Of a stretch of DNA of 64,000 bases, positions 16,709 through 54,062 are shown piece after piece (within the stretch, counting starts at the first letter, position 1; the number at the start of each line of letters is the position of its first letter). Under the pieces are notes generated by a model, which saw only the letters and a program-made list of their open reading frames with translations, made no database searches and had not been told where the DNA came from. The translations under genes were made by a program, and so were the position numbers. Where the stretch lies: contig LSKF01000047.1 in assembly GCA_001556995.1 (NCBI GenBank), forward strand, positions 1 to 64,000. The letters are read 5' to 3'. The stretch is from Erythrobacteraceae bacterium CCH12-C2. Its GTDB lineage: Bacteria; Pseudomonadota; Alphaproteobacteria; Sphingomonadales; Sphingomonadaceae.

Positions 16709-17139
16709 AGCTCGACTTCTGGCAATACACTCACGACCCGCTCGAAAAGGTCGTCGCGCTCATCGCCAAGCGCGTGCTGGGCGAAGGTGCGCGGCTGGTG
16801 GTGGTTTCGGGTGATGCCGATCAGCGCGCGGCTATCTCGCGCGCGCTGTGGCAGGCCGGGCCGGACACCTTCCTTGCCAATGGTGAAGCAGGCACAGCCG
16901 GGGCGGACCGTCAGCCGATCCTGCTTGCCGATACCCTGCAAGCGGTGAACGGCGCGGATCACGTGATCCTCGCGGATGGGGTCTTTCGCGATTGCCCCGG
17001 ATTTGCCCGCGTCTTCCTGCTCTTCCCCCCGGAAGCCGCACCCGCAGCGCGCGAAGCATGGTCGGCGCAGGATGGCCGCGCCGATATCGAACGCGCCTAT
17101 TTCGCGCAGGAAGACGGGCGCTGGGTCAAGAAGCGCTGA
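16705..17139 (+). CDS. holC: DNA polymerase III chi subunit
   Basis: 144 aa from GTG at 16705 ([24 protein letters not shown]), overlapping the DUF2256 stop. Chi links the clamp-loader complex to single-stranded DNA-binding protein during replication. The fold is recognisable by the FYQ/FWQ-like start, [22 protein letters not shown], and the terminal [18 protein letters not shown] with the basic end. The preceding in-frame ORF part (16627-16704) overlaps DUF2256 and is not used. It sits downstream of pepA as in many genomes. Confidence 0.9.
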
Positions 17140-42412: not shown

Positions 42413-42428
42413 TGGTGCGGCTGTCGGA
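42413..42428. other. Candidate attR: imperfect copy of the tRNA-Thr 3' end
   Basis: TGGTGCGGCTGTCGGA matches TGGTGCCGGCTGTCGGA (53987-54003) with a single missing C, 16 of 17 positions. It is in the same orientation as the tRNA end, 19 bases after ada, where the foreign region begins. Sequences beyond it differ on the two sides, as expected for an element boundary. Confidence 0.65.
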
Positions 42429-42487
42429 GCCGCAAAGGCGGACTAAACAACTGAAGAACGGGCTCTATCAATGTGTGCTGTGCAAAA

Positions 42488-42508
42488 TGGCCCCCGCAAT
42501 GGCCCCCG
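42488..42508. repeat. TGGCCCCCG tandem pair near the left end
   Basis: Two copies of TGGCCCCCG at 42488-42496 and 42500-42508, 12 bases apart. A third, TGGCCCCCAAAT, is at 43282-43293. The right end has two more (53852-53860 and 53865-53873), the last again followed by AAAT. The pattern fits arm-type sites of a tyrosine integrase. Confidence 0.5.
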
Positions 42509-42542
42509 TTTGGTGGGGCCTAGCCGCGTAACAGATTGTCTC

Positions 42543-43127
42543 TCAATATCCGTAGAGCCCGCTCTGAGAACGCCCGCTTAGCTTGTAGTCGGAGAAGGTC
42601 ACTACGATCATCCTGCGACCTGCCTTCCATTGATAGATCGATGCGGAATATCCACCGCTCGACGCGTAAGACACCTCTTCACCATAGTCGCCGAGGATGT
42701 ATTCGACCTCGTCCAACTCCATGCCAATGCGAAGCTGTATATACCCCGCGCTTGTAATGCCGGCCCTAGTATAGCCAGCGAGCCTCATCCCATCCTCAAA
42801 TGACAAGTTCCGGCGAGGGGTAAGGCACTCTAGGAATGCCTTGAGGTCATCCACGTGTTGGTCACATGACTGGCGCAGTCGCTGCCGCGTCACGTCGCTC
42901 ATCGACTCGCCGCCAATTAGCCGCCGCCGCGCTAAAATCTCACCAGCAGATCGCAATGCCTGATCTCGGCACTCCTCATCTGAGCATCGTTCCTGATGAA
43001 CTAGCAGCTGCTCGCCTAGGCGCCTTTCTTCTGCGGAAAGCTGCGGACGCCCCTCGGCACCGTGCGCTCCGATCGGGCTCAGCGCTTGCCAAGCTAAGAA
43101 CAGTGCAAGAATCTTCGGAATGCGCAT
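42543..43127 (-). CDS. Secreted protein, unknown, BamE-like end
   Basis: 194 aa from ATG at 43127 (MRIPKILALFLAWQALSPIGAHG, signal peptide). The C-terminal part IQLRIGMELDEVEYILGDYGEEVSYASSG with a following WKAGRRMIVVTFSDYKL has the GMxxxEVxxILG turn seen in BamE/SmpA-like domains. A disulfide is possible between CSDEEC residues. It is the leftmost gene of the element and reads towards attR. Not needed for replication or integration, so it is a candidate accessory gene. Family not assigned with certainty. Confidence 0.55.
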   Translation of the reverse strand: MRIPKILALFLAWQALSPIGAHGAEGRPQLSAEERRLGEQLLVHQERCSDEECRDQALRSAGEILARRRLIGGESMSDVTRQRLRQSCDQHVDDLKAFLECLTPRRNLSFEDGMRLAGYTRAGITSAGYIQLRIGMELDEVEYILGDYGEEVSYASSGGYSASIYQWKAGRRMIVVTFSDYKLSGRSQSGLYGY

Positions 43128-43385
43128 CACAACCCCCTTCCCGCACCATGCCAGACGGCACACGGCTGGGGAAGTCAGCACGTCGCGCAATGATGTGACA
43201 CGGCAGGGGCAGAAAATTGCGGGTCCTACCCAGAGGGTCCGAAAACGGATGTCGCTGGTCGACCGCTTTTTCTGCCCATAATGGCCCCCAAATGAATAAA
43301 ATCTGTTAGAAGTCACATACACTTAGGGGGAATTGGCCTGTCAATTTCACGGCTTTTGCGCTATGCTTTGCAAGCGAGGTGAAAC

Positions 43386-46300
43386 ATGACCCAATCGACT
43401 ATTTTTCCGATCTTTATTCGGAGCGAATACAAGGATGGCGGCGCGGGTTTTCGGCGCTTTCAGAGCGATGCACAGCAAGCGGCGCAGGCGGCGAAGCGTG
43501 AGTTTCAGGGCGTCTCGGCTGCATTGGATCAGGCGCTTTCCCGCCCTCGCAATGCAGGCGGCTCGCTCGACCTTGGCGTTGACGAGATGCGCCGCGCCCT
43601 TGTGGTGCAGCAACAGGTGGCAGCGGCGGCGCGAGAGGTAGCAGAGGCGACCAAACGGGCAGCGACAGCCAACGGGCAGTTTGACGCTGCCCTGTCCCGC
43701 GCCACCCGATCGGCCTTCGAACTGGCGAAAGCTGAGGAGCGCGCATCGGCCGAACTCTTGCAGCAGGTGACGGCGCTTGAACGGGTGCAGCAGGAGTTGA
43801 ACGGTGTTGCCAGCAGCACGGCGCTGGTGACGCGGGCAAACAGGGGAGCGGTTGCTTCACAGGGCGCGCTGCGAACCGCATCAGTCCAGGCGGGCCAGCA
43901 GCTTCAGGACATTGTGGTTCAGCTTGAATCGGGCACCCGCGCCACCACAATATTCGCTCAGCAGGTGCCGCAGTTGGCCTTCGCGCTTACTGGCCTGCGA
44001 GACAGCACGAGCGCGGTGCAGCGCCGGATTGGCGGGCTGGCGACCTTCCTTGCAGGCCCATGGGGCGCCGCAGTCTTCGCTGGCACGGCCATTCTCGGGC
44101 CCTTTGTCGCCAAGCTGTTCGAAGCTGAGAAGGCGGCTGATGAGGTGCGCTTTTCCACCGATGCGCTGGGCAACGCGCAATCAGTGCTCGGCAATGTGCT
44201 CGACATCACGACTGGCAAGATCGACACGCAGTCTGAGGCCCTGCGCAACCTTGCGGCCGCACAGTTGCTTGCGAACCAAATCGAAAACGCGAGGAAGCAA
44301 ACCGAACTGCGCGGCGCGCTGGGCGAGGCAGCACGCGAGCAGGGCGAGAAGATCACCGGACCCCTTGGCCTTCCCATCCCGAACGTGCGACCGGGGCCGG
44401 GGATTGGCAGGCTCGACGGCTTTTTGCGCCGCCCCAGCGAGTCGGCGGCTGTTGTCCGCGGCTTCCTTGACGGCGACACCGGGGCTTCGCAGGCCATCGA
44501 CCAGTTGCGGGCGCTGGAAAAGGCTGGTGCGATCACTCAAGAAAGGCTGCTCGACCTCAGCGCCACGATTGCCAACCTCGGCGTCGAACAGCGCAACAGC
44601 GAGATTTTCGCCGCAGCGGACAGGCTCTTGAACGGCAACGCGACGGCCGCCGATAGGGGGATTTTGCTGAAGCCTGACCGCGCAACCCCGCGCCGGACTC
44701 GCGGCGGGGCCGGCAGCGAAGCTCGCGAACTCAAGCAGCTCGCCGACTTCGGAGAGAAGGCCCAAGAAAGCATCCTTCGCATCAACGAGCGCTTCGATGA
44801 GCAGCCGCGTCTGATCGATCAGGCGGCGCAAGCGACCAGGCAGCTTGACGACATCATCAAGGACCTGAGCAAGCGTAAACCGGTGGGATTCGAGAAGCTG
44901 ATCGAAGAGGCAGAGCGGGCTAAGAGCTCTGTCGAGAGCGCGCTTTTGCGGCCCTTCGAAGCGCTGAGGCAGGAGTCGGAGCAACGCCTTCAGATCGAGA
45001 CCCTACTCGCTGCCGGCCGCGAAGATGAGGCCCGCACGCTGCAAGAGGTCCTACGGCTGGAACAGCAGATCGGGGCAGTCAGCGCCGAACAGCGCGCCGA
45101 AATCGAGGAAATCGTCCGCGCCGAGCGACTGCGCACCCGAGAGCTCCGCGATCAGGCGGCGCTCTTCGCCGCGCAACTGGGCGTTGTGGATGAGGTGCGC
45201 CGCTCGCTGACAGATGTCCTGAGCGGGCGCGGCGGCGACTTCTTCGGCAACTTCCGGCAGGCCTTGCGGGACCTACAGGGCCAGCGCCTATTCGAGACGA
45301 TCTTCGGGGACACCTTCCGGCAGATTGAGGAGGAGTTGCGCGGCAAGAGTCCACAGGGGCGCGCTAACGCTCGCTATGCGGCTGAGGTCGAACGGACAGC
45401 CCTCACAACGGCGCGCGTCGAGCGGGCGCTCGATAGCCTAGCCGAGAGTGCCGAGAGCGCCTCTGTGAGGCTGCGCGGCGGCGTGGTGGCGGCAAACGAC
45501 AATGCAGGCGGGTTCAACCCGCAAGTAAACATCGTGCAGGCGGCGCTTCAGGCGGCGGGCATCGGGACCGGGATCACGGTCACCGGCACGAGGCCAAGGA
45601 CAACTGAGATCGGGCGAATGTCGATCGACAGCTTGGCCAAGCGAATTAGCGGCGGCATTGGAACCAGCATCGGCGCTCAGCTCGACGATTTGCTCGGGCC
45701 GCGGTTCGCTGCACTGCTCGGCGATGTTGTCGGCGGCGCGATTGCTGGAAAGGTTCTCGGCGGAACGACAGGAAGCATTCTCGGCGGGCTGGAAGGTCTC
45801 ACTGCCAACGTGAAAGGACTGGAAGGCCTCTCGGGCTTGCTGGGCAAAGCAGGCACAGGCGCAGCCACCGGAACGCAGATTGCGGGCCTCTCGAAGCTTC
45901 TGGGCCTTGGCGGCTCCACGACTGGCGCACAGATCGGCGGCGCAGCGGGGGCCTTCCTGCCCTTCCCAGGCGGCGACATTGTCGGCGCCATCGCGGGCAA
46001 CATCATCGGCGGCTTGCTCAAGAGCACGAAGCGCGGCTCGGCGACTATCGGCGGGGCAGGCGGGTCGCTGGGCGTCACCGGTATTCGCGGCAACAGCAGC
46101 TCGCTCAAAGACACTGCCAACACGCTCGCCGGCAGCGTGCTCGAAAGTGTCACCCGCATTGCTGAACAACTCGGCGCAGAGGTCAACGCCAGCGCGGGCC
46201 GCGTGAGCATCGGGCAGCGCGACAAGAACTTGCGCGTCGATACGACCGGCAGAGGCATCACGAAGACCCGCAACGGCGCCGTCGACTTCGGCGATGATGC

Positions 46301-47108
46301 GGAAGCGGCCATCGCCTTCGCAGTGCGGGACCTTATCCAAGACGGTGTTATCAAGGGGCTGAAGGCATCGGAAAACCGGCTCTTGCAGGCTGCAAGCGAC
46401 GTCGAGACCGGACTCAGGGACGTGCTCACGTTCCGCTCGGTGTTCGACCGGTTGAAGGAAATCAGGGACCCGATCGGCTTTGCGGTCGATCAGGTCACAA
46501 AGGAGTTCGACCGGTTCCGCGAAGTGTTCCGGCGCGCTGGGGCCGATGCTGCCGAGCTTGCGGATCTCGAAGCCCTCGCGAGCCTTGAGCGGGCGCAGGC
46601 CATCGAGGACGCCACCAGCCGCGTGGTAGGCTCGCTTCGCGGGCTTCTCGACAATCTGCGAACGGGTGACAGCGGCCTTTCAATCCGCACCCGGCGCGGC
46701 AACGCTCTCGGCGAGTTCGACGCACTGGCGGCCCGCGTGGCGGCTGGTGACAGCAGCGCATTCGACCGGTTCGCAGAGGTATCGCAGCAACTGCTCGATA
46801 TTGAACGCCAGTTGTTTGGCTCGACGCAGAGCTATTTCGATCGGCTCGGGCAGGTGACTTCGCTAACCGAACAGGCGATCGCGGGGCAGGCGAATGTCGT
46901 ATCGATCGGAGCGGCGGGGATTGCGCCAATGGACGACAGCATCGCTGTAGTTCGCAGCATCGACGTTCAAACGGACACGATCGCCCTACGGCTCGATACC
47001 TTGAACGCCAATTTCGTCGCACTGGCCACTCGGTTGGAGCAGGTGAGCGGTGGGGGCGGGTTTCAGAGCGACCTTCCGCTCACCCCGCGACAGATCTCCA
47101 ATTTCTAG
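43386..47108 (+). CDS. Phage tail tape measure protein
   Basis: 1,240 aa. The N-terminal coiled region is followed by QLQDIVVQLESGTRATTIFAQQVPQLAFAL and GLATFLAGPWGAAVFAGTAILGPFVAKL (about residues 170-245), the hydrophobic tape-measure signature of siphophage and sphingomonad prophage tails. Long helical stretches follow, a glycine-rich hydrophobic region (about 760-900), and a C-terminal part resembling tail-tip-proximal regions (KASENRLLQAASDVETGLRDVLTFRSVFDRL). It looks full length. The gene has its own GAGGTG SD, no neighbour on this strand, and no other tail gene nearby. Function as a tail-length ruler is by family; role in this element is unknown. Confidence 0.82.
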   Translation: MTQSTIFPIFIRSEYKDGGAGFRRFQSDAQQAAQAAKREFQGVSAALDQALSRPRNAGGSLDLGVDEMRRALVVQQQVAAAAREVAEATKRAATANGQFDAALSRATRSAFELAKAEERASAELLQQVTALERVQQELNGVASSTALVTRANRGAVASQGALRTASVQAGQQLQDIVVQLESGTRATTIFAQQVPQLAFALTGLRDSTSAVQRRIGGLATFLAGPWGAAVFAGTAILGPFVAKLFEAEKAADEVRFSTDALGNAQSVLGNVLDITTGKIDTQSEALRNLAAAQLLANQIENARKQTELRGALGEAAREQGEKITGPLGLPIPNVRPGPGIGRLDGFLRRPSESAAVVRGFLDGDTGASQAIDQLRALEKAGAITQERLLDLSATIANLGVEQRNSEIFAAADRLLNGNATAADRGILLKPDRATPRRTRGGAGSEARELKQLADFGEKAQESILRINERFDEQPRLIDQAAQATRQLDDIIKDLSKRKPVGFEKLIEEAERAKSSVESALLRPFEALRQESEQRLQIETLLAAGREDEARTLQEVLRLEQQIGAVSAEQRAEIEEIVRAERLRTRELRDQAALFAAQLGVVDEVRRSLTDVLSGRGGDFFGNFRQALRDLQGQRLFETIFGDTFRQIEEELRGKSPQGRANARYAAEVERTALTTARVERALDSLAESAESASVRLRGGVVAANDNAGGFNPQVNIVQAALQAAGIGTGITVTGTRPRTTEIGRMSIDSLAKRISGGIGTSIGAQLDDLLGPRFAALLGDVVGGAIAGKVLGGTTGSILGGLEGLTANVKGLEGLSGLLGKAGTGAATGTQIAGLSKLLGLGGSTTGAQIGGAAGAFLPFPGGDIVGAIAGNIIGGLLKSTKRGSATIGGAGGSLGVTGIRGNSSSLKDTANTLAGSVLESVTRIAEQLGAEVNASAGRVSIGQRDKNLRVDTTGRGITKTRNGAVDFGDDAEAAIAFAVRDLIQDGVIKGLKASENRLLQAASDVETGLRDVLTFRSVFDRLKEIRDPIGFAVDQVTKEFDRFREVFRRAGADAAELADLEALASLERAQAIEDATSRVVGSLRGLLDNLRTGDSGLSIRTRRGNALGEFDALAARVAAGDSSAFDRFAEVSQQLLDIERQLFGSTQSYFDRLGQVTSLTEQAIAGQANVVSIGAAGIAPMDDSIAVVRSIDVQTDTIALRLDTLNANFVALATRLEQVSGGGGFQSDLPLTPRQISNF

Positions 47109-47157
47109 CGAAGCGGGGCGGCGCGCTGGGGTCGCAACAGCGGCCGCCCCTCGCGCT

Positions 47158-47394
47158 TCATTCGGCAGTAGGGTCGTTAAGTAGCATGTCGAGCAGACCC
47201 TCGCAGTGCAGCTCGATGCTAGGGTTTGCACCGGCAATGTCTCGGCAGGCCACCAAGGTCGTCACGAGCTTATGAACGGTCTCACCCTTGAGCACGCCGA
47301 CGCCCTGCAAGGCCTTCACAGCCAACGTCGCAGCGGTCGACGCATACAGCGCCAATGCCATTTCCGGAGACTGCGGCTCTTGTGTCTTTGTCAT
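47158..47394 (-). CDS. Small acidic protein, unknown
   Basis: 78 aa (MTKTQEPQSPEMALALYASTAATLAVKALQGVG...). The ATG at 47394 is preceded by GGAGGAACCG, the GGAGG being the best SD near it; an in-frame ATG at 47406 overlaps that SD and is less likely. Mostly helical, with a hydrophobic middle; not a convincing membrane protein. Last gene of the leftward cluster and tail-to-tail with the tape measure gene. No family recognised. Confidence 0.5.
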   Translation of the reverse strand: MTKTQEPQSPEMALALYASTAATLAVKALQGVGVLKGETVHKLVTTLVACRDIAGANPSIELHCEGLLDMLLNDPTAE

Positions 47395-47517
47395 CGGTTC
47401 CTCCATTGCCTGGTGGTCAAAAGGGCGGTTTTCGGTCTCCCCCTGAAGCGCTCGCTCGCAAAACTGACCCGAACACCCCGAATAGTAAATCGCACAAGCA
47501 CGGTGTTGTTGATAGGT

Positions 47518-47554
47518 GCGCGGCCGGCCCGGATAACCGGCGAGCCGGCCGCGC
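47518..47554. terminator. Strong GC hairpin after the 225-aa gene
   Basis: GCGCGGCCGGC at 47518-47528 and GCCGGCCGCGC at 47544-47554, a perfect 11-bp stem with a 15-base loop that itself contains CCGGataaCCGG. Located between the 225-aa gene (stop at 47628) and the 78-aa gene start. No U-run, so it may be a terminator-like stop or an mRNA stabiliser. Confidence 0.45.
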
Positions 47555-47627
47555 GCGGCGCAAGGGAAGGACGCCCCGCACCGCTTGTAGCACCGCGCGA
47601 CCGAAGCGAAGCGCGGCGCTGACCTGC

Positions 47628-48305
47628 CTAGAGGAATCGCGTCGAGATCGCGACCGGCGCAACTTGCACCGCACCGGATTTCTCGGCGAGCATTGCAAGC
47701 GCTTCTCGCACATCGGGAGGCACGGGAAGGTTGATCTGCCAGCCGAGCAAGCAGTCATTCCCGAGGACGCCCTTCACCGCGGCCGTGCTGGTTCGCAGTT
47801 CAGGCATGAAGCTGCGTCCAGTCGCATCGGCAATCGCGCTCAGGGCCGCGTGGGTTTCGACAATCTCAAGCGCGGCTCGCTTCTGTCGCAAAGCCAGATC
47901 GGCGACGTGCTCGGCAAGGGCGTCGAAGGCCTTGGCCCGTTCCCGTCCTTCGATCTCGGCAATCTCCTTACGCAGCACATCGGCACGCAGCCTGAGGGGT
48001 TCCAACGCTGATTGCAGAGCGTCCCGCTGCGCTTCGAGCTGCTCGCGTGAGGTCGAGCCTTTAGTCGCCTCCGCAAGCGGCCTGCCGGCGAGGATGGCAG
48101 CCGCCACTACATCGGACTCGGGGCCGCGATAATCCCTTGCCGCATTCGCGAGGCGCTGGATCTCCTGCCGGGTTTCATCATCCTTCGCAGCGACGTTCCG
48201 CACTTCCTCACGCAGCCGTGCAAGCTCGGCGTTGCCCGGCTCGAAATCGATCGCTTCGATCGCGCTGGTGAGCGTGGTAGGCGATTTGGCCTTGGTCCCG
48301 ATCAT
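47628..48305 (-). CDS. Coiled-coil protein, unknown
   Basis: 225 aa. After a flexible N-terminus a long helical stretch runs from about 25 to 150 (NAELARLREEVRNVAAKDDETRQEIQRLANAAR; ALEPLRLRADVLRKEIAEIEGRERAKAFDALAEH), typical of structural or scaffolding coiled coils. The C-terminal part (LLGWQINLPVPPDVREALAMLAEKSG) looks globular. Overlaps the upstream gene stop by ATGA. No homology recognised. Confidence 0.65.
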   Translation of the reverse strand: MIGTKAKSPTTLTSAIEAIDFEPGNAELARLREEVRNVAAKDDETRQEIQRLANAARDYRGPESDVVAAAILAGRPLAEATKGSTSREQLEAQRDALQSALEPLRLRADVLRKEIAEIEGRERAKAFDALAEHVADLALRQKRAALEIVETHAALSAIADATGRSFMPELRTSTAAVKGVLGNDCLLGWQINLPVPPDVREALAMLAEKSGAVQVAPVAISTRFL

Positions 48306-48808
48306 GCTTCACCTCCGATACCGAACCGGGCGCGCATGGCGTCTGCCAGAATGTTGCGCTCGGAGAGTTGGGCAATGATCTTGACGTGATCGAGGTCCGT
48401 CTCGGCAAGCAGCTTCAGCGCCTCGGCGGCTTGGCCACGATGCAAGGCGACCTTGGCCACTTCGGAGATGCGGAACCGTTCCAATTTGCGGGATGCATCG
48501 ACGCCGCGGCTGAAATCCTCACTCACGCCGCTTTTCGGCTTCGGTGCCTGTGCTTTCGGGGCGCTGGTGCTCGTAGCGGGCTTATTGACCTTTGGAGTCG
48601 GCGCACTCGCTGACCTGCTCAAGCTCGCCTCATACTCGGCGTCCCGCGCCTTCACGCTGGCCTTCAGCTTCGCTTCGGCTGCGCGGCGCTCCGGCGACTT
48701 CGAGGCCTCATACCGCGCCGCCGCGCTCGATACGTGGGCGTAGTGCTCCTGCTCGTCATTACGCCTCTCGCGCGCAATCTTCGCGGCGAGGGATTCGTAT
48801 TGGGACAT
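48302..48808 (-). CDS. Charged low-complexity protein, unknown
   Basis: 168 aa from ATG at 48808 with AAAGGA 8 bases before it. The first 75 residues are charged and helix-rich (IARERRNDEQEHYAHVSSAAARYEASKSPERRAAEAKLKASV), then comes an Ala/Pro/Lys linker (about 80-105) and a C-terminal helical part (RISEVAKVALHRGQAAEALKLLAETDLDHVKII). Its stop overlaps the following ATG (ATGA). Function unknown; the basic, Lys/Pro-rich linker suggests nucleic-acid or scaffold binding. Confidence 0.6.
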   Translation of the reverse strand: MSQYESLAAKIARERRNDEQEHYAHVSSAAARYEASKSPERRAAEAKLKASVKARDAEYEASLSRSASAPTPKVNKPATSTSAPKAQAPKPKSGVSEDFSRGVDASRKLERFRISEVAKVALHRGQAAEALKLLAETDLDHVKIIAQLSERNILADAMRARFGIGGEA

Positions 48809-48951
48809 GATCAATCCTTTCGGTTGGGTTGTGGCGTTGGGGACGGTGCCGCGCCGGGTGGCGAGGGTTGCGTGCGATCGATCCGGGCAGGCGCGTGCCA
48901 GCCGGTCGACGTTTCGAATGTTTCGGATGAAGCGCCTATCGCGCCCGTAGA

Positions 48952-49095
48952 TCAGCGATGCGGCTTGCGCAGGCGCTCGACGGGGAAGCGGATAACGTTC
49001 GGCGAATCCGTGACAGCCGGTTGCGGGCGAAGAACGCTTCGACCTAGAGCCATCATGCGTTCGGCATCGGAAAAGGCTTGCAGGGGATGAAGCAT
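48952..49095 (-). CDS. 47-aa conserved-looking small protein
   Basis: MLHPLQAFSDAERMMALGRS then a PNVIRFPVERLRKPHR end, then TGA. AAGGA lies 8 bases before the ATG. The IRFPVERxRxP ending resembles short alphaproteobacterial proteins of unknown role. The remaining gap to the next gene (48809-48951) holds nothing I can support. Too short for a usual ORF filter. Confidence 0.6.
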   Translation of the reverse strand: MLHPLQAFSDAERMMALGRSVLRPQPAVTDSPNVIRFPVERLRKPHR

Positions 49096-49111
49096 TGCCA
49101 AGGTCCTTGCT

Positions 49112-49131
49112 GTGTTGTTCAGGTATAACAC
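49112..49131. promoter_or_regulatory. Inverted repeat upstream of the 47-aa gene
   Basis: GTGTT-gttcaggtat-AACAC, perfect 5-bp arms with a 10-base spacer, 16 bases upstream of the 47-aa start. Read leftwards it contains TTATAC as a possible -10. It may be an operator for a small dimeric regulator. Confidence 0.4.
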
Positions 49132-49155
49132 CTTTTGGCTGGATCGCGAAGGCCA

Positions 49156-50466
49156 TCATGCGGCCTCATCATCATGGCGGGCCGCGCTAGCGGCCGTGTG
49201 ATTAGCTGACTCAGGAAGGTCGTTGAGGTCACATTGAAGTAACATTGAAGTCTCATTGAACTCACATTGAAGTCGACCGCTTTGGTCCAGCATCTCGGGC
49301 GCATTGTTCCGGATCACGCCGGAAAAATACTCGCACCAGTGCCTGCAAAGGTCGATGCGCTCGGCTTGCCATCTGGCCGTGGCGCTAGTCCGGGGGCGAG
49401 CGACAAGCCGCGGAATGCCCCGGATTGCCGCCTTCCGATACATGCGGTCCACTGGCACCCGCCAGCTGTAGGGTGCTTGGTCAAGATGATGATCGAGCTT
49501 GTCAGCATCGCCGGAAAGGGCCAGCCCCGCAGCAATGGCGAGCAGCCCCACAGCGTGTTCGGGAGCGCTCGTGTCCAGCTTGCCTTGGCGCAGCACGCCC
49601 AAGGGATAGATGGCCTGCGCGCCGCTCTGATCGTCTTCCACCACGCTAAGCACGAACTCGACGGCGCCGGCGTCTTGGAGGATCTTCATGCGATCGAAAT
49701 ACCGCGCTGCGTCGTCATCATCGCGTGCTTTGCGGTGGTCATCTGTGACATCGCTGAAGCGCGTCCACTCGCGCCGCCCGGTCGCTGATACGATCGCGGT
49801 TTCGGCAGTCCGGTAGATCACCTTCTCTTCATCGAATGCCTGCCAGATGAAATCCCATGCCGTGCCGCCATTCTCGGGCAGGTCCTGCGCCGCATACATC
49901 TGCGCCAATAGGAGGAAGGCGAGAGGGTCGCGCGCCCTCCGGATCCGCTCCAAAATGCATGGGGTGGCAGTGGGCATCCCGCGTTCATCGCCGACAAGAG
50001 AGAGGGGCAAATAGACCGGCTCAACCTTGCGCTGCTCGATGGCCCGAAAATCAGCATCGAGCCAACCGTCAGCGGCCATCTTCTCGAAGAGCCGCATGTC
50101 TTTCGGCGATGCGGGCGAGTTGCCCCGGCGAGCCCATTCCAAGGCGGTGAAGTAGCCGGGCTTCAAAACGCGTGTTTCGTAGAGCTTGAGTCGGATGCGG
50201 TTCCGGCGCGAGGATTTGTCCTGCCACGATATCACGCCGTCACTCTCGACCCGCGCAAGCTTCTGATCGATCTTGCGCCAGCTCATCGGGATGCGGCGAC
50301 GGATCGGCTCCCGCGTCCAGGAGGAGAGGAGGCCGGTCGCATCAGTGCCCATCGCCATGCACAACAGGATTGCGACCGTGTCGGCGTCATAGCGCAGGCA
50401 CCACTGCCGCAAGGTGGGCAGGTCGACAACGTTGAAGTGCCCTCGGTCTTTCGGTTTCCGGGTCAT
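49156..50466 (-). CDS. Replication-initiator-like protein of the element
   Basis: 436 aa. The N-terminal region (about 20-110: DLPTLRQWCLRYDADTVAIL, then SWRKIDQKLARVESDGVISWQ) looks like a winged helix, and the rest is mixed. The last codons (about 405-425) run over a set of 11-bp DNA repeats, so the coding end doubles as a probable initiator-binding region. Its position beside iterons and the AlpA-type regulator supports a replication role, but no polymerase, primase or helicase motif is seen. Start overlaps the 68-aa gene stop. Confidence 0.55.
   Translation of the reverse strand: MTRKPKDRGHFNVVDLPTLRQWCLRYDADTVAILLCMAMGTDATGLLSSWTREPIRRRIPMSWRKIDQKLARVESDGVISWQDKSSRRNRIRLKLYETRVLKPGYFTALEWARRGNSPASPKDMRLFEKMAADGWLDADFRAIEQRKVEPVYLPLSLVGDERGMPTATPCILERIRRARDPLAFLLLAQMYAAQDLPENGGTAWDFIWQAFDEEKVIYRTAETAIVSATGRREWTRFSDVTDDHRKARDDDDAARYFDRMKILQDAGAVEFVLSVVEDDQSGAQAIYPLGVLRQGKLDTSAPEHAVGLLAIAAGLALSGDADKLDHHLDQAPYSWRVPVDRMYRKAAIRGIPRLVARPRTSATARWQAERIDLCRHWCEYFSGVIRNNAPEMLDQSGRLQCEFNETSMLLQCDLNDLPESANHTAASAARHDDEAA
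49219..49273. repeat. 11-bp iteron array inside the Rep-like gene
   Basis: CATTGAA recurs at 49232, 49243, 49254 and 49265, exactly 11 bases apart (units TCACATTGAAG, TAACATTGAAG, TCTCATTGAAC, TCACATTGAAG). A weaker fifth unit (CGTTGAGG) sits at 49221. Because 11 is not a multiple of 3 the repeats fall in different reading frames, so the protein is not repeated: the conservation is at DNA level, typical of Rep-binding iterons. Confidence 0.7.
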
Positions 50467-50669
50467 GGCTCAGCCCCCTCGCCAGTGAGGTCCACCAGCA
50501 TCAGCCCGCGTTGTTTGGCAACACCCGCCGCGAAGGCTCGGGCTTCCTCCGCATTCGGGAAGAAATGCCCCCTTTCGCGATCGGGCGCGGGCGTTCGCAC
50601 CGTCACCAGCGCAACCGGCTCGGGCAGCGCGGCTTCGATCAGCACAAGCCCGTTGATGCGCGCGCTCAT
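50463..50669 (-). CDS. Small protein, unknown
   Basis: 68 aa (MSARINGLVLIEAALPEPVA...). Overlaps the Rep-like gene start by ATGA and the 50-aa gene stop by ATGA. Contains HFFPNAEEARAFAAGVAKQRG, a short helix with a hydrophobic strand; no known family. Chained translation with its neighbours suggests one operon. Confidence 0.55.
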   Translation of the reverse strand: MSARINGLVLIEAALPEPVALVTVRTPAPDRERGHFFPNAEEARAFAAGVAKQRGLMLVDLTGEGAEP

Positions 50670-50818
50670 TCGCCACCGCCTTCCGCATCCTCGGAATCGG
50701 CGTCCCCGTCGAGCTCATCAAGCAAGGCAAGGATGGCATTGCCGGCGTCGAGAAGGCGCTCGGCGAGATCGCCGATCAAGGCGCGGGTTTCGGGGGGCAT
50801 GGCGGCGGCACTCATCAT
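50666..50818 (-). CDS. Small acidic protein, 50 aa
   Basis: MMSAAAMPPETRALIGDLAE then an LLDAGNAILALLDEL helix and an acidic end EDAEGGGE. The ATG at 50818 overlaps the AlpA-like stop, and the TGA at 50666 overlaps the next ATG. Strongly acidic, helix-forming; unknown role. Confidence 0.55.
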   Translation of the reverse strand: MMSAAAMPPETRALIGDLAERLLDAGNAILALLDELDGDADSEDAEGGGE

Positions 50819-51021
50819 TCACCGCCCCGCACCAGCCGCTCGACCGATTCAGCCGAGACAATCCGGGTCTTCCCCACAAGGCGGGATTCGAGCGTGCCGT
50901 CCGCGATCAGCTCCCACACCCGGGTTAAGCCAATTCCGGTGACGGCAGGGATTTCCTTGGGGCGGTAAGAGAGCCGCTTTAGCGGAGGGCGGGCGCTCGC
51001 CTTGGCATTTTCGGTCTGCAT
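50815..51021 (-). CDS. AlpA-like excisionase/regulator (HTH_17)
   Basis: 68 aa. KRLSYRPKEIPAVTGIGLTRVWELIADGTLESRLVGKTRIVSAESVERLVRG is the MerR-like winged helix of the AlpA/Xis type found with satellite and phage integrases. Such proteins activate integrase-linked operons or act as recombination directionality factors. It is preceded by two 13-bp direct repeats that could be its operator. Confidence 0.82.
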   Translation of the reverse strand: MQTENAKASARPPLKRLSYRPKEIPAVTGIGLTRVWELIADGTLESRLVGKTRIVSAESVERLVRGGE

Positions 51022-51075
51022 TGTGTCTCTCCGTGTTGGTGTGACGGAGGACGGTTTAATCCGGAGTCGCGCTCC

Positions 51076-51102
51076 AAATTAGGGACACGAATTGGGGACA
51101 TC
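51076..51102. promoter_or_regulatory. Two 13-bp direct repeats upstream of the AlpA-like gene
   Basis: AATTAGGGACACG and AATTGGGGACATC follow one another at 51077-51089 and 51090-51102, matching 10 of 13 positions. They lie 56-81 bases before the AlpA start. The single site beside the regulator suggests a tandem operator. Confidence 0.45.
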
Positions 51103-51103
51103 A

Positions 51104-51736
51104 TTAGCGGCGCTTTGGAGGGCGGCCCGGCCGCCTTTTCAGGCCGTGCGCAGCATCTTGGAAACTTACCAGTCTGAATTCGAGCGCCTCACTATCGAAC
51201 CGCACCATAGCGTCACGCTCAAGGCCTGCCTTGAATCGCGTGATCGATTTCTTGACGGTCTCAAAATCATCGCGGTCGCTCTCGATGATTTCCCGATAGA
51301 GCCTCAGGAACGTGGCCTCAAAATCCGCGTCCTGAAAGTCCTCCCCAAGCTCGGCGATGGTGTCGATGAACAAGCTTGTTGCCATCATAGCGCGCTGCAT
51401 TGGTGCATCCCTTTCGCCTGAATTGGGAAGGCAGTAGCCAGCGCGGTAGAGGGCGGCCGCCACCAGTGCCCGACGCTCTCCAATCGAGATTTCATCAGGT
51501 GCGCGGCGCATCGATTGCTCTAATCCGCTTCGCAATTTGTCTTCGTAAACATCGGCAACGATTGCGAGGTCGGCATTTCGGAGTGCATCGAAGAACTTTC
51601 GGTGAGCAGCGAGTGATTTGTTCATCTCAGCGACGGCCGCGGCATTTCTCGCAGGCGGGTCGGCTGGCATTGCTTCAAGGATAGTCTGGAGCTGATTCCA
51701 GGCGGTGAGCAGATCCTCTTTGGCGCTCGGTGTCAT
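51104..51736 (-). CDS. Helical protein with AT-hook-like tail
   Basis: 210 aa, all helical, starting MTPSAKEDLLTAWNQLQTIL. Ends KRRPGRPPKRR, which has the GRP core and flanking basic residues of an AT-hook, usually binding the minor groove of AT-rich DNA. The rest (PPARNAAAVAEMNKSLAAHRKFFDALRNADLAIVADVY) shows no family I recognise. The ATG at 51736 follows GAAGGGAAGCGGG. Probably a DNA-binding helper of the element. Confidence 0.55.
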   Translation of the reverse strand: MTPSAKEDLLTAWNQLQTILEAMPADPPARNAAAVAEMNKSLAAHRKFFDALRNADLAIVADVYEDKLRSGLEQSMRRAPDEISIGERRALVAAALYRAGYCLPNSGERDAPMQRAMMATSLFIDTIAELGEDFQDADFEATFLRLYREIIESDRDDFETVKKSITRFKAGLERDAMVRFDSEALEFRLVSFQDAAHGLKRRPGRPPKRR

Positions 51737-51843
51737 CGGCCCGCTTCCCTTCGCGGCTCCCATGTGAAGGCGGGGCAACGGGTGGGATTCCCGCGTTCGG
51801 ATGGCCGTCCTAGCCCCGCCTCAAGATCAGCCCTTGCGGGCAT

Positions 51844-52158
51844 TCATGCAAGCGCATCCTGTGCAGCAATCGCCTTGAGCCGTTCGATAGCCCGCGCCCG
51901 CTGAATCGGCGGCAAGCGATCCAGCCTCGCCTGAACCCATTCGCAGAAGGCCATGTGCGCGAAGTGCTTGCGCATTTCATCAGCCAACCAAAGCGCGTCG
52001 GCGCGGCTGGCGCAGCGATAGCGCATGTCTTCCTCGCCTTTGCGGCGGCAGACGGTCCACCACTCGGTGCGGTGCCGCTTGCGGACGAAACGACGCTCGG
52101 GCTCAGCGGTGACAATCCAGCGATTGGCAAGGGCGAAGGGCAGGATTTCGGCGCTCAT
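51844..52158 (-). CDS. Small basic protein, unknown
   Basis: 104 aa (MSAEILPFALANRWIVTAEPERRFVRKRHRTEWWTVCRR...). Arg/Trp-rich with CRRKGEEDMRYRCASRADALWLADEMRKHFAHMAF. No domain recognised. It overlaps the upstream 116-aa gene (ATGA) and belongs to the same leftward operon. Confidence 0.55.
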   Translation of the reverse strand: MSAEILPFALANRWIVTAEPERRFVRKRHRTEWWTVCRRKGEEDMRYRCASRADALWLADEMRKHFAHMAFCEWVQARLDRLPPIQRARAIERLKAIAAQDALA

Positions 52159-52505
52159 GATCGGCGCCCCGCTCTCGGATAGGCAAGCGTCCGGGTATCG
52201 CGGGCAACCTGCTCGAAGATCTCCCGAGCTTCGCTGAACCCCCATGCGCCTTCATCAAGGATGATGCGGGCTTTCTGTGCCAGCTGCTCGGCGGTGCTGA
52301 TTGGGAAAAGGATGAATTCCATCAGGGCGGCGTGCTCGGCATCGCAATGCGCGTTCCCCTCTTCTTCTGACAGACCTTCCGGCCGCGCGGGGTCGTAATC
52401 AGCAAGGTCCCATGCCGCTTTGGCGTAGCGCCATGCACGATACAGGCGCTCGAATTCATTGGGGGTTGCGGCTGGGGGCTCAGTCCGTAGTGGTGTCACG
52501 GTCAT
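52155..52505 (-). CDS. Small protein, unknown
   Basis: 116 aa (MTVTPLRTEPPAATPNEFERLYRAWRYAKAAWDLADYD...). Acidic and helical, with HCDAEHAALMEFILFPISTAEQLAQKARIIL in the middle. Placed 67 bases after the integrase stop. No homology recognised. Confidence 0.55.
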   Translation of the reverse strand: MTVTPLRTEPPAATPNEFERLYRAWRYAKAAWDLADYDPARPEGLSEEEGNAHCDAEHAALMEFILFPISTAEQLAQKARIILDEGAWGFSEAREIFEQVARDTRTLAYPRAGRRS

Positions 52506-52572
52506 TTCGATCTCCTACTGATCGGGGTGATAGGGCCAGCGGAGAGACTCGACCTTCCCCGCTGGCCCGTTT

Positions 52573-53820
52573 TCATCGGGCCGGGTGCCCGGTGAACTTG
52601 GGAGCGAAGGGGATGATTTTGCCCCCGTCGCGCAGTGAATCCAGATAGTCAGACCACCATTGGGCCATGGCCACCCGTTCGGCCCAGCGATTGCCGCGGT
52701 CATAGGCAGCGCGGATTTGATCGCTGTCACCATGGGCGAGGGCGCGCTCGATCGCATCGGGGGACCATTTGCCGGATTCGTTCAACAGGGTCGAAGCAGT
52801 CGACCTAAAGCCGTGAGCGGTCACCACTTCCTTGGCATACCCCAGCCGCCGCAAGGCCGCGTTCAAGGTGTTTTCGCTGATCGGGCGGGCAGGGGTGCGC
52901 ACGCTTGGGAAGACGTAGCGGTCCTCGGGGGCGCCGATCGCGCGGGCCTCGCTCAAGATCGCCACGGCCTGCTTGGACAGGGGAACAGCATGCGGACGCC
53001 GCATCTTCATTTTCTCGGCTGGTATCGTCCACACAGCGGCCTCAAGATCGATTTCAGCCCATTCCGCGCGCCGTAGCTCGCCGGGGCGCTGATAGACATG
53101 CGGAGCCAGCCGCAAGGCATGGAGCGTCGACGCGTTGCCCCTGTAGCCATCTATGGCCCGCAACAGGCCCCCCAGCTCGACAGGGTCGAGAATGGCGGCG
53201 CGGTGCGAAGTCTTCGGAGCGAGCAAGGCGCCCCGCAAATCGCGGCTGGGGTCGGACGTGAGCCGAGCGGTTGCGACGGCATGGCGCAAGACGGAGCCGG
53301 TGAATTGCAAGGCTCGGCGGGCGCTTTCCAACTTCCCGCGCGCTTCGATCTTGCGGACAGCGGCGAGAATGTCGCTAGGGATGATGTCGGCAACCGGGAT
53401 CCGGCCAATGGTCGGCTTCAACTCGGCGAGCAGCCATTCCGCCTTCGCCCTTGTCGCATCGGACCATGGCCGGTCACCGTCTCGGCAGCGTTTGCTGATG
53501 TATTCGGCCGCCACAGTCTCAAAGGTGTTTTCGGCATTCACCAGCGAGCGGGCCTTGCGGCGCTGCTTTTCGAGCGAAGGGTCTTTGCCGTCTGCGATCA
53601 TCTGGCGGGCATGGTCGCGGCCCTTCCGTGCATCGGACAGGCTCACCTCGGGATAGGTGCCAAGCCCCAGCTTCTTCTCGCGACCTGCAATGCGATACTT
53701 GAGCCGCCAGAGCTTGCCCCCGGTTGGCTGCACCAGGAGGAACAGGCCAAGCGAATCTCCGAGCTTATAGGGCTTCGCGCGCGGCTTGGCGGTGCGGCAT
53801 TGCAGGTCCGTGAGCGGCAT
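52573..53820 (-). CDS. int: Tyrosine-type integrase (DUF4102/P4 type)
   Basis: 415 aa. The N-terminus MPLTDLQCRTAKPRAKPYKLGDSLGLFL is the DUF4102 domain of P4/CP4-57-type integrases. The core-binding domain is at about 95-190. The catalytic domain has Arg in YQRPGELRRAEW, Lys in AEKMKMRRPHAVPL, HGFRSTAST (His and Arg box), AHGDSDQIRAAYDRG (Tyr nucleophile). It catalyses integration and excision at the tRNA target. It is adjacent to and reads away from the tRNA-Thr gene, as is usual for tRNA-integrating elements. Confidence 0.96.
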   Translation of the reverse strand: MPLTDLQCRTAKPRAKPYKLGDSLGLFLLVQPTGGKLWRLKYRIAGREKKLGLGTYPEVSLSDARKGRDHARQMIADGKDPSLEKQRRKARSLVNAENTFETVAAEYISKRCRDGDRPWSDATRAKAEWLLAELKPTIGRIPVADIIPSDILAAVRKIEARGKLESARRALQFTGSVLRHAVATARLTSDPSRDLRGALLAPKTSHRAAILDPVELGGLLRAIDGYRGNASTLHALRLAPHVYQRPGELRRAEWAEIDLEAAVWTIPAEKMKMRRPHAVPLSKQAVAILSEARAIGAPEDRYVFPSVRTPARPISENTLNAALRRLGYAKEVVTAHGFRSTASTLLNESGKWSPDAIERALAHGDSDQIRAAYDRGNRWAERVAMAQWWSDYLDSLRDGGKIIPFAPKFTGHPAR

Positions 53821-53851
53821 TCTGGGGGCCTTTTCGATTCCACTTCAGAAG

Positions 53852-53873
53852 TGGCCCCCGTATCTGGCCCCCA
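53852..53873. repeat. TGGCCCCC pair near the right end
   Basis: TGGCCCCCG at 53852-53860 and TGGCCCCCAAAT from 53865, 13 bases apart, plus inverted TCTGGGGGC at 53821 and 53942. They lie between the integrase start and the tRNA, in the place of an attP arm region. The same words are near the left end. Confidence 0.5.
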
Positions 53874-53986
53874 AATCTTTCGGCTGTCAATGGCGCGATG
53901 CGAATTAATCCGAACGAATGACCCATGGAAATGCTCGGCTTTCTGGGGGCTGAGCGGTGGGGATCGGGTTGCATCGGAGGGGGAGA

Positions 53987-54062
<76 letters not shown>

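Follow-up and report, generated by a model that had tools for sequence, protein, structure and literature searches.

A 64,000-nucleotide stretch of DNA from Erythrobacteraceae bacterium CCH12-C2 (contig LSKF01000047.1, positions 1 to 64,000; hereafter the window) carries an 11.6-kb element adjoining a tRNA-Thr gene, with attachment (att) cores at 42418..42428 and 53993..54003. We consider it likely that this element is an integrated phage satellite, which substitutes its own tape measure protein (TMP) in the tails of a helper phage and probably interferes with the helper's scaffold as well. The element is discrete and integrated, has its own integrase and a specific attachment site, and is without most virion genes and would hence depend on a helper. 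Its layout of integrase, AlpA and replication gene in about 10 kb is that of Gram-negative phage-inducible chromosomal islands (PICIs), of which AlpA is a mark, the AlpA match in the window being weak. Ten further islands in Sphingomonadales share the layout of the window element, with an integrase, small genes and replication genes, one TMP and a coiled-coil protein that we call cc225.

The preliminary description of this DNA had placed an integrase, an AlpA-like regulator and a Rep-like gene with iterons beside tRNA-Thr, together with an intact TMP gene as the only virion gene. All of these features were found (Table 1). The TMP gene (43386-47108) is uninterrupted over its 1240 codons, and its product matches Pfam TMP_2 (5e-6, 26.8 bits, below the 30.2-bit cut-off) and, in PHROGs, family 167 'tail length tape measure protein' (1.3e-5). 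TMP aside, no portal, terminase, capsid or tail family was recognised in the element at E <= 0.01 by Pfam, PHROGs or a further profile scan (ten window proteins in each scan, together every element protein except the 50-amino-acid (aa) open reading frame (ORF)). To this extent the TMP stands alone. However, since the gene at 48302-48808 is a weak scaffold homologue, a second, less obvious virion-assembly gene may be present.

Relatives of the element were collected through the TMP. A profile of 24 TMPs gave 19 genome loci and 50 viral-contig loci, and a survey of 397 genomes of one bacterial family, with a TMP match in 47, gave 40 further stretches that were read (loci are given L numbers, genomes G numbers and protein clusters c numbers). 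The 2443 proteins from 110 loci (window included) were clustered, and phage loci were separate from islands; genes were called by a simple caller trained on ten window genes, which missed some, e.g., the scaffold of L104. Among the 109 TMP rows, 26 lacked head clusters and had no more than one tail cluster, and 15 of these were called satellites, 11 of them core islands (defined by integrase, TMP and cc225) and four partial. The core islands are the window element, L001 (Erythrobacter), L002 (Novosphingobium), L003 (Croceicoccus), L004 (Citromicrobium), L005 (Altererythrobacter), L011 (Altericroceibacterium), L102, L104, L106 and L112. As no more than two candidates per genome were scored in the genome survey and 40 stretches were read, its nine core islands in 397 genomes are a lower bound. 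Three partial islands (L008, L013 and L018) have cc225 and no integrase found in the stretch read, and the fourth, L109, in which neither was found, is recognisable only by a tRNA-Arg site and by c2 paired with its TMP. The remaining loci (L119, L121, L125, L126, L128, L130, L133, L136, L137, L139 and L141) were set aside, mostly as other phage types by a look at their clusters; in L125, L126 and L136 a TMP relative is accompanied by an integrase belonging to the same cluster, without cc225 or recognised head genes.

Each of the 11 core islands holds one TMP. Head clusters were found in 0 of the 15 islands, and tail clusters c1, c3, c4, c5, c7 and c18 in 0 of the 11 core islands in the stretch read. 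Tail cluster c2 (PHROG 6367, of unknown function; in 77 loci, mostly just before the TMP) is kept before the TMP in core islands L002 and L112 and also in partial islands L008, L013 and L109, while L018 keeps two tail-module genes, c4 and c2; c2 was not found in the other islands, the window element included. A comparison of 123 proteins of the 11 core islands with PHROGs left out the TMPs and took in all twelve other genes of the window element; L002 was covered as far as position 17000, and in L104 the caller had missed genes. It recovered integrase (11), excisionase (8) and, for replication, families of primase, DnaB-like helicase and O-like initiator, and no structural family was present among the families listed (25 of 82 from PHROGs and 25 of 46 from Pfam). 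As a control, 36 proteins of two prophages yielded portal, maturation protease, major head protein and decoration protein. Because the islands were picked for lacking head genes, the absence of structural genes is partly circular, and the distribution of cc225 provides the independent side: cc225 was detected in none of the 70 loci that carry head genes (these have 55 different TMPs, as the two collections overlap in some phages). Outside the TMP, DNA of the window element recurs in other islands: Rep in L001, the iterons in L102 and the integrase in L011, L005 and L004. The only such DNA it has in common with the phage loci compared is a 54-bp stretch in L027/L052 (E 3e-4).

A tRNA-Thr (TGT) adjoins the integrase in L004, L005 and L011 as in the window; the other islands are at tRNA-Ser (L003), tRNA-Arg (L104 and L106, at one end), tRNA-Gln (L001) or tRNA-Lys (L002 and L102), and L112 has no tRNA in the stretch read. 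Repeats of the tRNA end measure 47 bp in L104, 54 bp in L106, 48 bp in L102, 46 bp in L002, 21+13+12 bp in L001 and 15 bp in L003 and L004, and in the window the tRNA-Thr piece is repeated at 42418 (11 bp exact, 15 bp with at most two mismatches). From repeat to repeat, L001, L003, L004, L102, L104 and L106 measure 10.7-11.6 kb, the window element 11.6 kb and L002 20.8 kb. TMP and cc225 lie on opposite strands in the window, L001, L104 and L106, and on the same strand in the other seven core islands. An additional locus, L019 (Novosphingobium chloroacetimidivorans, a 19.3-kb contig), encodes a 156-aa protein that matches the cc225 profile (1.2e-6) beside a short TMP match, and is possibly a broken or partial island.

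Tape measure proteins set tail length. The identity of the window protein follows from its homology to TMPs that stand beside head and tail genes, and it clusters with the TMPs of 70 loci holding head genes. There were 291 homologues among 7992 candidates scored; among the 120 matches listed, own copy aside, identity was 36-76%, in some cases over part of the length. Two TMP relatives and one relative of the Rep-like protein come from contigs of equal length (3,635,379), perhaps a single genome that has two islands. In an alignment of 24 relatives, invariant residues span positions 59 to 1209. For the tree, the 109 rows (window included) were reduced to 92 by removing identical, short and cut rows. 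The 15 islands are not one clade and need nine changes; they lie within one 41-row group together with 23 of the 25 lambda-type rows and three others, and their monophyly was rejected by the approximately unbiased (AU) test both for the 15 rows (p-AU = 6e-8) and for the 11 core rows (six changes, p-AU = 2e-60). In the closest pair, island L005 and phage L031, the TMPs are 87% identical in protein over 1246 codons, with a ratio of nonsynonymous to synonymous divergence (dN/dS) of 0.11 (0.087/0.782), a figure that describes the two together and not the satellite lineage by itself. Compared with a prophage region of genome G237, which has the same phage TMP as L031, the TMP gene of L005 is 83.3% identical in DNA over 3527 bp, and in 70 kb around the G237 TMP just one further stretch, of 38 bp, is in common. 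This stretch lies beyond cc225, in a part where the far end of L005, which has no end repeat, is not fixed. Such a comparison of an island with a prophage region was made for L005, and the window was compared with the collected loci. The nearest phage TMP to that of the window, in viral contig L020, is about 50% identical and 39 aa longer (dN 0.50 and dS 1.9, too large for trust). TMPs of the 11 core islands are shorter (median 1233 aa) than those of 24 phages (median 1425 aa, the shortest 1251 aa; P-value = 3e-5, uncorrected for kinship). The satellite TMP has been borrowed from phages and kept, and has been exchanged with them. Separately, the TMP-family matches G126 C1 and G343 C11 have one internal stop apiece; they were not used as evidence of decay.

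The second main feature of the islands is a scaffold-like gene beside cc225. A homologue of the phage scaffold cluster, c10, lies between TMP and cc225 in seven islands (L002, L003, L004, L005, L011, L102 and L112), and a six-frame search recovered one beside cc225 in L104 (4.6e-18). The phage and satellite scaffold profiles match each other with 98% probability, and the scaffold-like protein of L102 and its counterpart in phage L030 share 36% identity over 181 aa (2e-19). Judged by these matches, the satellite scaffolds as a set are homologous to the scaffold of lambda-type phages, as those of a CpmB-like switcher would be, and we take them to be Nu3-like. The window gene at 48302-48808 matches the scaffold profile at 3.9e-5 by hmmsearch among 2443 proteins and at 5.5e-6 among 1137 six-frame segments, and by hhalign its probability is 77% against satellite scaffolds and 61% against phage scaffolds. 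Outside the cluster itself, the best hits of the scaffold profile are the genes at this very place in the window and in L001 (2.7e-5). In L106, L008 and L013, a small protein beside cc225 has a similar C-terminal W motif and no convincing profile match.

The W motif is present in 12 of 22 phage scaffolds, 10 of 14 satellite scaffolds and 64 of 989 other proteins of 90-240 aa (the pattern was defined after inspection). It is missing from the C-termini of the scaffolds of the window, L001 and phage L020, and the TMP of L020 is the closest to those of the window and L001. A permutation test of scaffold C-terminus against TMP kinship gave a post hoc P-value of 0.009 (0.010-0.11 when other lengths of the C-terminal tail are taken). 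Since it was noticed before the test was written and depends on the window, L001 and L020, this pattern was rejected as a result and is kept as a lead. In addition, two successive scaffold-cc225 pairs follow one TMP in L002 (13693-16252), with scaffold C-termini like those of separate phage groups, the L022 and L036 types; three W motifs lie in repeated C-terminal tails in L013 (15767-16309), and two similar tails are found in L104 (12746-13328).

For cc225, 17 homologues, own copy included, were found among 7996 candidates scored out of 5.8 billion proteins, and profile search recovered it in L104 (1.4e-11) and L106 (6e-9). Several of the homologues are on contigs equal in length (9782, 11448, 11842 and 95697) to contigs with TMP hits, although equal length does not prove the contigs identical. 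Its AlphaFold2 model is a long helical hairpin (mean predicted local distance difference test (pLDDT) 86, predicted template modelling score (pTM) 0.61). The constant position of cc225 beside the scaffold suggests that it is a partner in head assembly. P4 Sid was discarded as a relative (rank 21, E 2.1, which is meaningless), and weak matches to a head scaffolding PHROG (0.055) and to a CIS13 model (0.063) were taken as coiled-coil chance.

The phages interleaved with the islands in the TMP tree have a lambda-type head, the genes of which were named on one member, L006: portal (PHROG 21, 5e-102), S49 protease (PF01343), scaffold, gpD-like decoration protein (PF02924) and major capsid protein E (PF03864). 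In PHROG 53 'head maturation protease', which has 583 positions, the phage scaffold c10 matches 312-450 (1.1e-4), presumably the part where lambda-type proteases carry the Nu3 scaffold. The helper would thus be a siphophage with a lambda-type head, either infecting or induced. Upon its arrival or induction, the satellite would excise by means of its integrase and AlpA-like factor, replicate through Rep and the iterons, and make its own TMP, which would take the place of the helper TMP in the growing tail and give tails built on the satellite's ruler. Meanwhile, the scaffold-like protein, with cc225 as its probable partner, would compete with the helper scaffold and divert heads in the manner of CpmB from Staphylococcus aureus pathogenicity islands (SaPIs). 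By analogy with the PLE satellites discussed below, we infer that the satellite TMP replaces the tape measure of the helper; the scaffold-like gene beside cc225, unnoticed in the preliminary description, would probably add interference with the head to that with the tail. A bolder proposal, which we advance tentatively and hold somewhat less probable than not, is that the family resets both virion dimensions, the tail by a borrowed TMP and the head by a scaffold decoy, and follows changing helpers by swapping the TMP gene and the C-terminal docking tail of the scaffold, with the rest of the island constant. Some members (L002, L004, L013 and L104) seem to have a second scaffold, or more than one docking tail, to suit different helpers.

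That the element is instead the remnant of a deleted prophage, which chanced to keep its TMP gene, is very unlikely. Deletion could leave an integrase and one virion gene, the island TMPs are homologous to and nested among those of phages, and the retention of the neighbour gene c2 in some islands, and of c4 and c2 in partial island L018, fits such an origin. However, the same layout recurs in 11 islands with long intact tRNA repeats at several of them, cc225 is absent from the head-gene loci, and L005 shares little beyond its TMP with the closest prophage, the dN/dS of that pair being low. Neither broken or scattered structural genes nor kinship with a parent prophage extending past the one gene was found, when L005 was compared with a prophage region and the window with the collected loci. 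The suggestion in the preliminary description that the element is a satellite, for which it had pointed to related elements, gene decay and origin by deletion as the matters that bear on it, gains support on each count: every core island has a single TMP, no head clusters and at most c2, in two cases, of the tail clusters checked; the ORFs are full length, and the TMP is under purifying selection in the pair examined; and L005 has in common with the prophage of its closest TMP that gene and the 38-bp stretch only.

Two other readings accept a satellite and differ on what its TMP is for. The protein could serve DNA entry as the satellite's own ejection or pilot protein, with tail length as a side effect. 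TMPs take part in genome injection, reportedly from work on HK97, and the length change is small in several pairs (-39, -56, -30 and +3 aa); yet satellite TMPs are shorter on average, and since this role is indistinguishable here from tail assembly, both may hold. We regard DNA entry as the main purpose as quite improbable. It is likewise unlikely, if a little less so, that the TMP is a weapon and not a ruler, poisoning the tail assembly of the helper to protect the host and going unused in the satellite's own particles. Defences carried by satellites and prophages are known to act on tail assembly (PMC11364771 and PMC12987554), and the shorter average length of satellite TMPs would suit a poison. 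However, a whole TMP with invariant residues from one end to the other, purifying selection in one pair and exchange with phages are more than a poison needs, and removal of tmp from the PLE satellites of Vibrio cholerae cut their transfer by 96-99.9% (PMC12987554).

Several observations weigh against the satellite that substitutes its tape measure and interferes with the scaffold. No helper phage is known for the window element; no second TMP of the family was found at E <= 1e-5 in six satellite genomes, and the one present in G364, the genome of L112, at locus L111, is not beside recognised lambda-type head genes. No packaging site shared with lambda-type phages was recognised: exact 16-mers of the 11 islands against six stretches of five prophage regions gave 31 scattered matches, none standing out, and an excess over the 12 matches of reversed islands, a rough control, may come from shared coding habits, as reversal breaks codons too. 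The scaffold homologue of the window is weak and without the C-terminal W motif. For the link between scaffold C-terminus and TMP, restriction to the 11 core islands gives P-values of 0.015-0.21, and leaving out the window and L001 gives 0.12-0.37; whole scaffolds show no link with TMP kinship (P-value = 0.25). Neither cc225 nor the Rep-like protein has a structural relative at E <= 0.001 in the fold search. The att core of the window element is 11 bp only, and no repeat of at least 11 bp was found in L005, L011 and L109. Mosaicism of the TMPs, with L005 and L031 diverging more over the first ~230 residues than over the remainder, may inflate both clade tests. Finally, the TMP of L005 is 3 aa longer than its closest phage TMP, and those of L004 and L106 are 15-32 aa longer than some near phage TMPs.

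Tail piracy by satellites was proved recently for the phage-inducible chromosomal island-like elements (PLEs) of Vibrio cholerae, its benefit being not yet understood (PMC12987554). Experiments showed that PLE TMPs enter chimeric tails; the PLE11 TMP differs from that of phage ICP1 by 95 aa, and PLE11 tails are 10 nm shorter (PMC12987554). Our islands resemble PLE1, PLE4 and PLE11 in that the satellite's own TMP stands in place of the phage's. PLEs also remodel capsids through TcaP (PMC12409344), to which the putative scaffold decoy would correspond here, and the weak winged-helix match of the window Rep is a faint parallel to the RepA_N of PLEs. In contrast, PLEs are ~18 kb, prey on the virulent ICP1, which has contractile tails, and all encode a tail assembly chaperone (TAC) with tmp, whereas the presumed helper of the islands is a temperate siphophage with a lambda-type head and their hosts are Sphingomonadales. 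In the window, where tmp is present, no TAC was recognised by profile, and a diverged one could be missed. The islands look like a family unrelated to PLEs that plays the same trick.

Other satellites share parts of the design. Putative tmp genes are noted in PLE-like elements and some capsid-forming PICIs (cf-PICIs) in the legend of Extended Data Fig. 10 of PMC12987554; cf-PICIs resemble the islands in integrase, satellite life style and predicted tmp, and differ in making their own capsids and packaging proteins, none of which was recognised in the islands. Gram-negative PICIs and P4-like satellites likewise have ~10 kb, an integrase, an AlpA-like factor and a replication module and no capsid or portal, and differ in terS, which was not recognised in the window element. 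The satellite-borne mimic of a helper scaffold recalls CpmB and Rcm of SaPIs, scaffold mimics that redirect capsids, scaffold competition by Rcm being that paper's hypothesis (PMC12409344); the scaffold of the islands differs in being Nu3-like and paired with cc225, of which no known relative turned up. Further papers drawn on were PMC4936722, PMC10803314, PMC10448857 and PMC11661146.

Among the open-licence papers listed in searches with capped lists, none dealt with TMP-bearing satellites in Sphingomonadales, which is weak evidence of absence. An apparently unrelated alphaproteobacterial family with a TMP and a scaffold decoy suggests that tail takeover is a general satellite strategy, by which the island could probably reshape virus particles for its own spread. 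Because satellite TMPs are homologous to those of lambda-type phages and prophages, what a satellite gains from its own TMP is testable in matched pairs, one of them 87% identical, and cc225 is a marker for finding more such islands.

Table 1. Features of the satellite element in the window (positions in the 64,000-nucleotide stretch).
Feature	Position	Strand	Comment
attL core	42418..42428	.	repeats 11 bp of the tRNA-Thr 3' end
Probable cargo gene, 259 aa as listed	42543..43322	-	PHROG 6148 BLIP-like, 1.5e-4
Tape measure protein (TMP), 1240 aa	43386-47108	+	open from ATG to stop
Small ORF, 82 aa	47158..47406	-	no Pfam, PHROG or other family match
cc225, coiled-coil protein	47628..48305	-	adjoins TMP; marks the satellite family
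Nu3-like scaffold homologue (weak)	48302-48808	-	scaffold place beside cc225
Rep-like protein, 436 aa	49156-50466	-	20 homologues, own copy included, among 7996 candidates scored
Iterons, four copies at 11-bp spacing	49220..49273	.	inside the 3' end of the Rep-like gene
Small ORF, 68 aa	50463..50669	-	L001 relative 73% identical
Small ORF, 50 aa	50666..50818	-	ORF call
AlpA/excisionase-like helix-turn-helix regulator	50815-51021	-	weak: PF12728 E 0.0024, TIGR01764 E 0.0074
224-aa protein	51104..51778	-	L102 relative, 42% identity
104-aa protein	51844..52158	-	relatives in L004 and L005
116-aa protein	52155..52505	-	relative in L001
Tyrosine integrase, 415 aa	52573-53820	-	PF22022, PF13356, PF00589; NF007246 below its cut-off
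attR core	53993..54003	.	inside tRNA-Thr (TGT) 53987-54062 (-)

Among the remaining genes, the AlpA-like gene has relatives in L004, L005, L011 and L112, and by profile also in L003. The model of the Rep-like protein has a pLDDT of 80, with just weak winged-helix matches in the fold search. The iterons have identical spacing in L102 (7673-7738), where the block is 85% identical, and none were found in L001 (7015-7120); lying within the coding end of Rep, they at the same time encode a C-terminal peptide that is conserved in the Rep family. The probable cargo gene sits between attL and the TMP and occurs in none of the protein clusters of the loci compared; its C-terminal part resembles PHROG 6148 (BLIP), and an internal ATG at 43127 is followed by what looks by eye like a signal peptide. 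A PADLOC scan for defence cargo gave mad1 (four members) and LeoA (one) only. Finally, TGGCCCCC occurs as a close pair at either end of the window element, at 42488/42500 (span 42488-42507) and 53852/53865 (span 53852-53872). The window-wide count of seven copies is unremarkable (reached in 12 of 100 shuffles); five of the seven lie within the element, four of these near its ends, and the pairs may be read as arm sites of the integrase.

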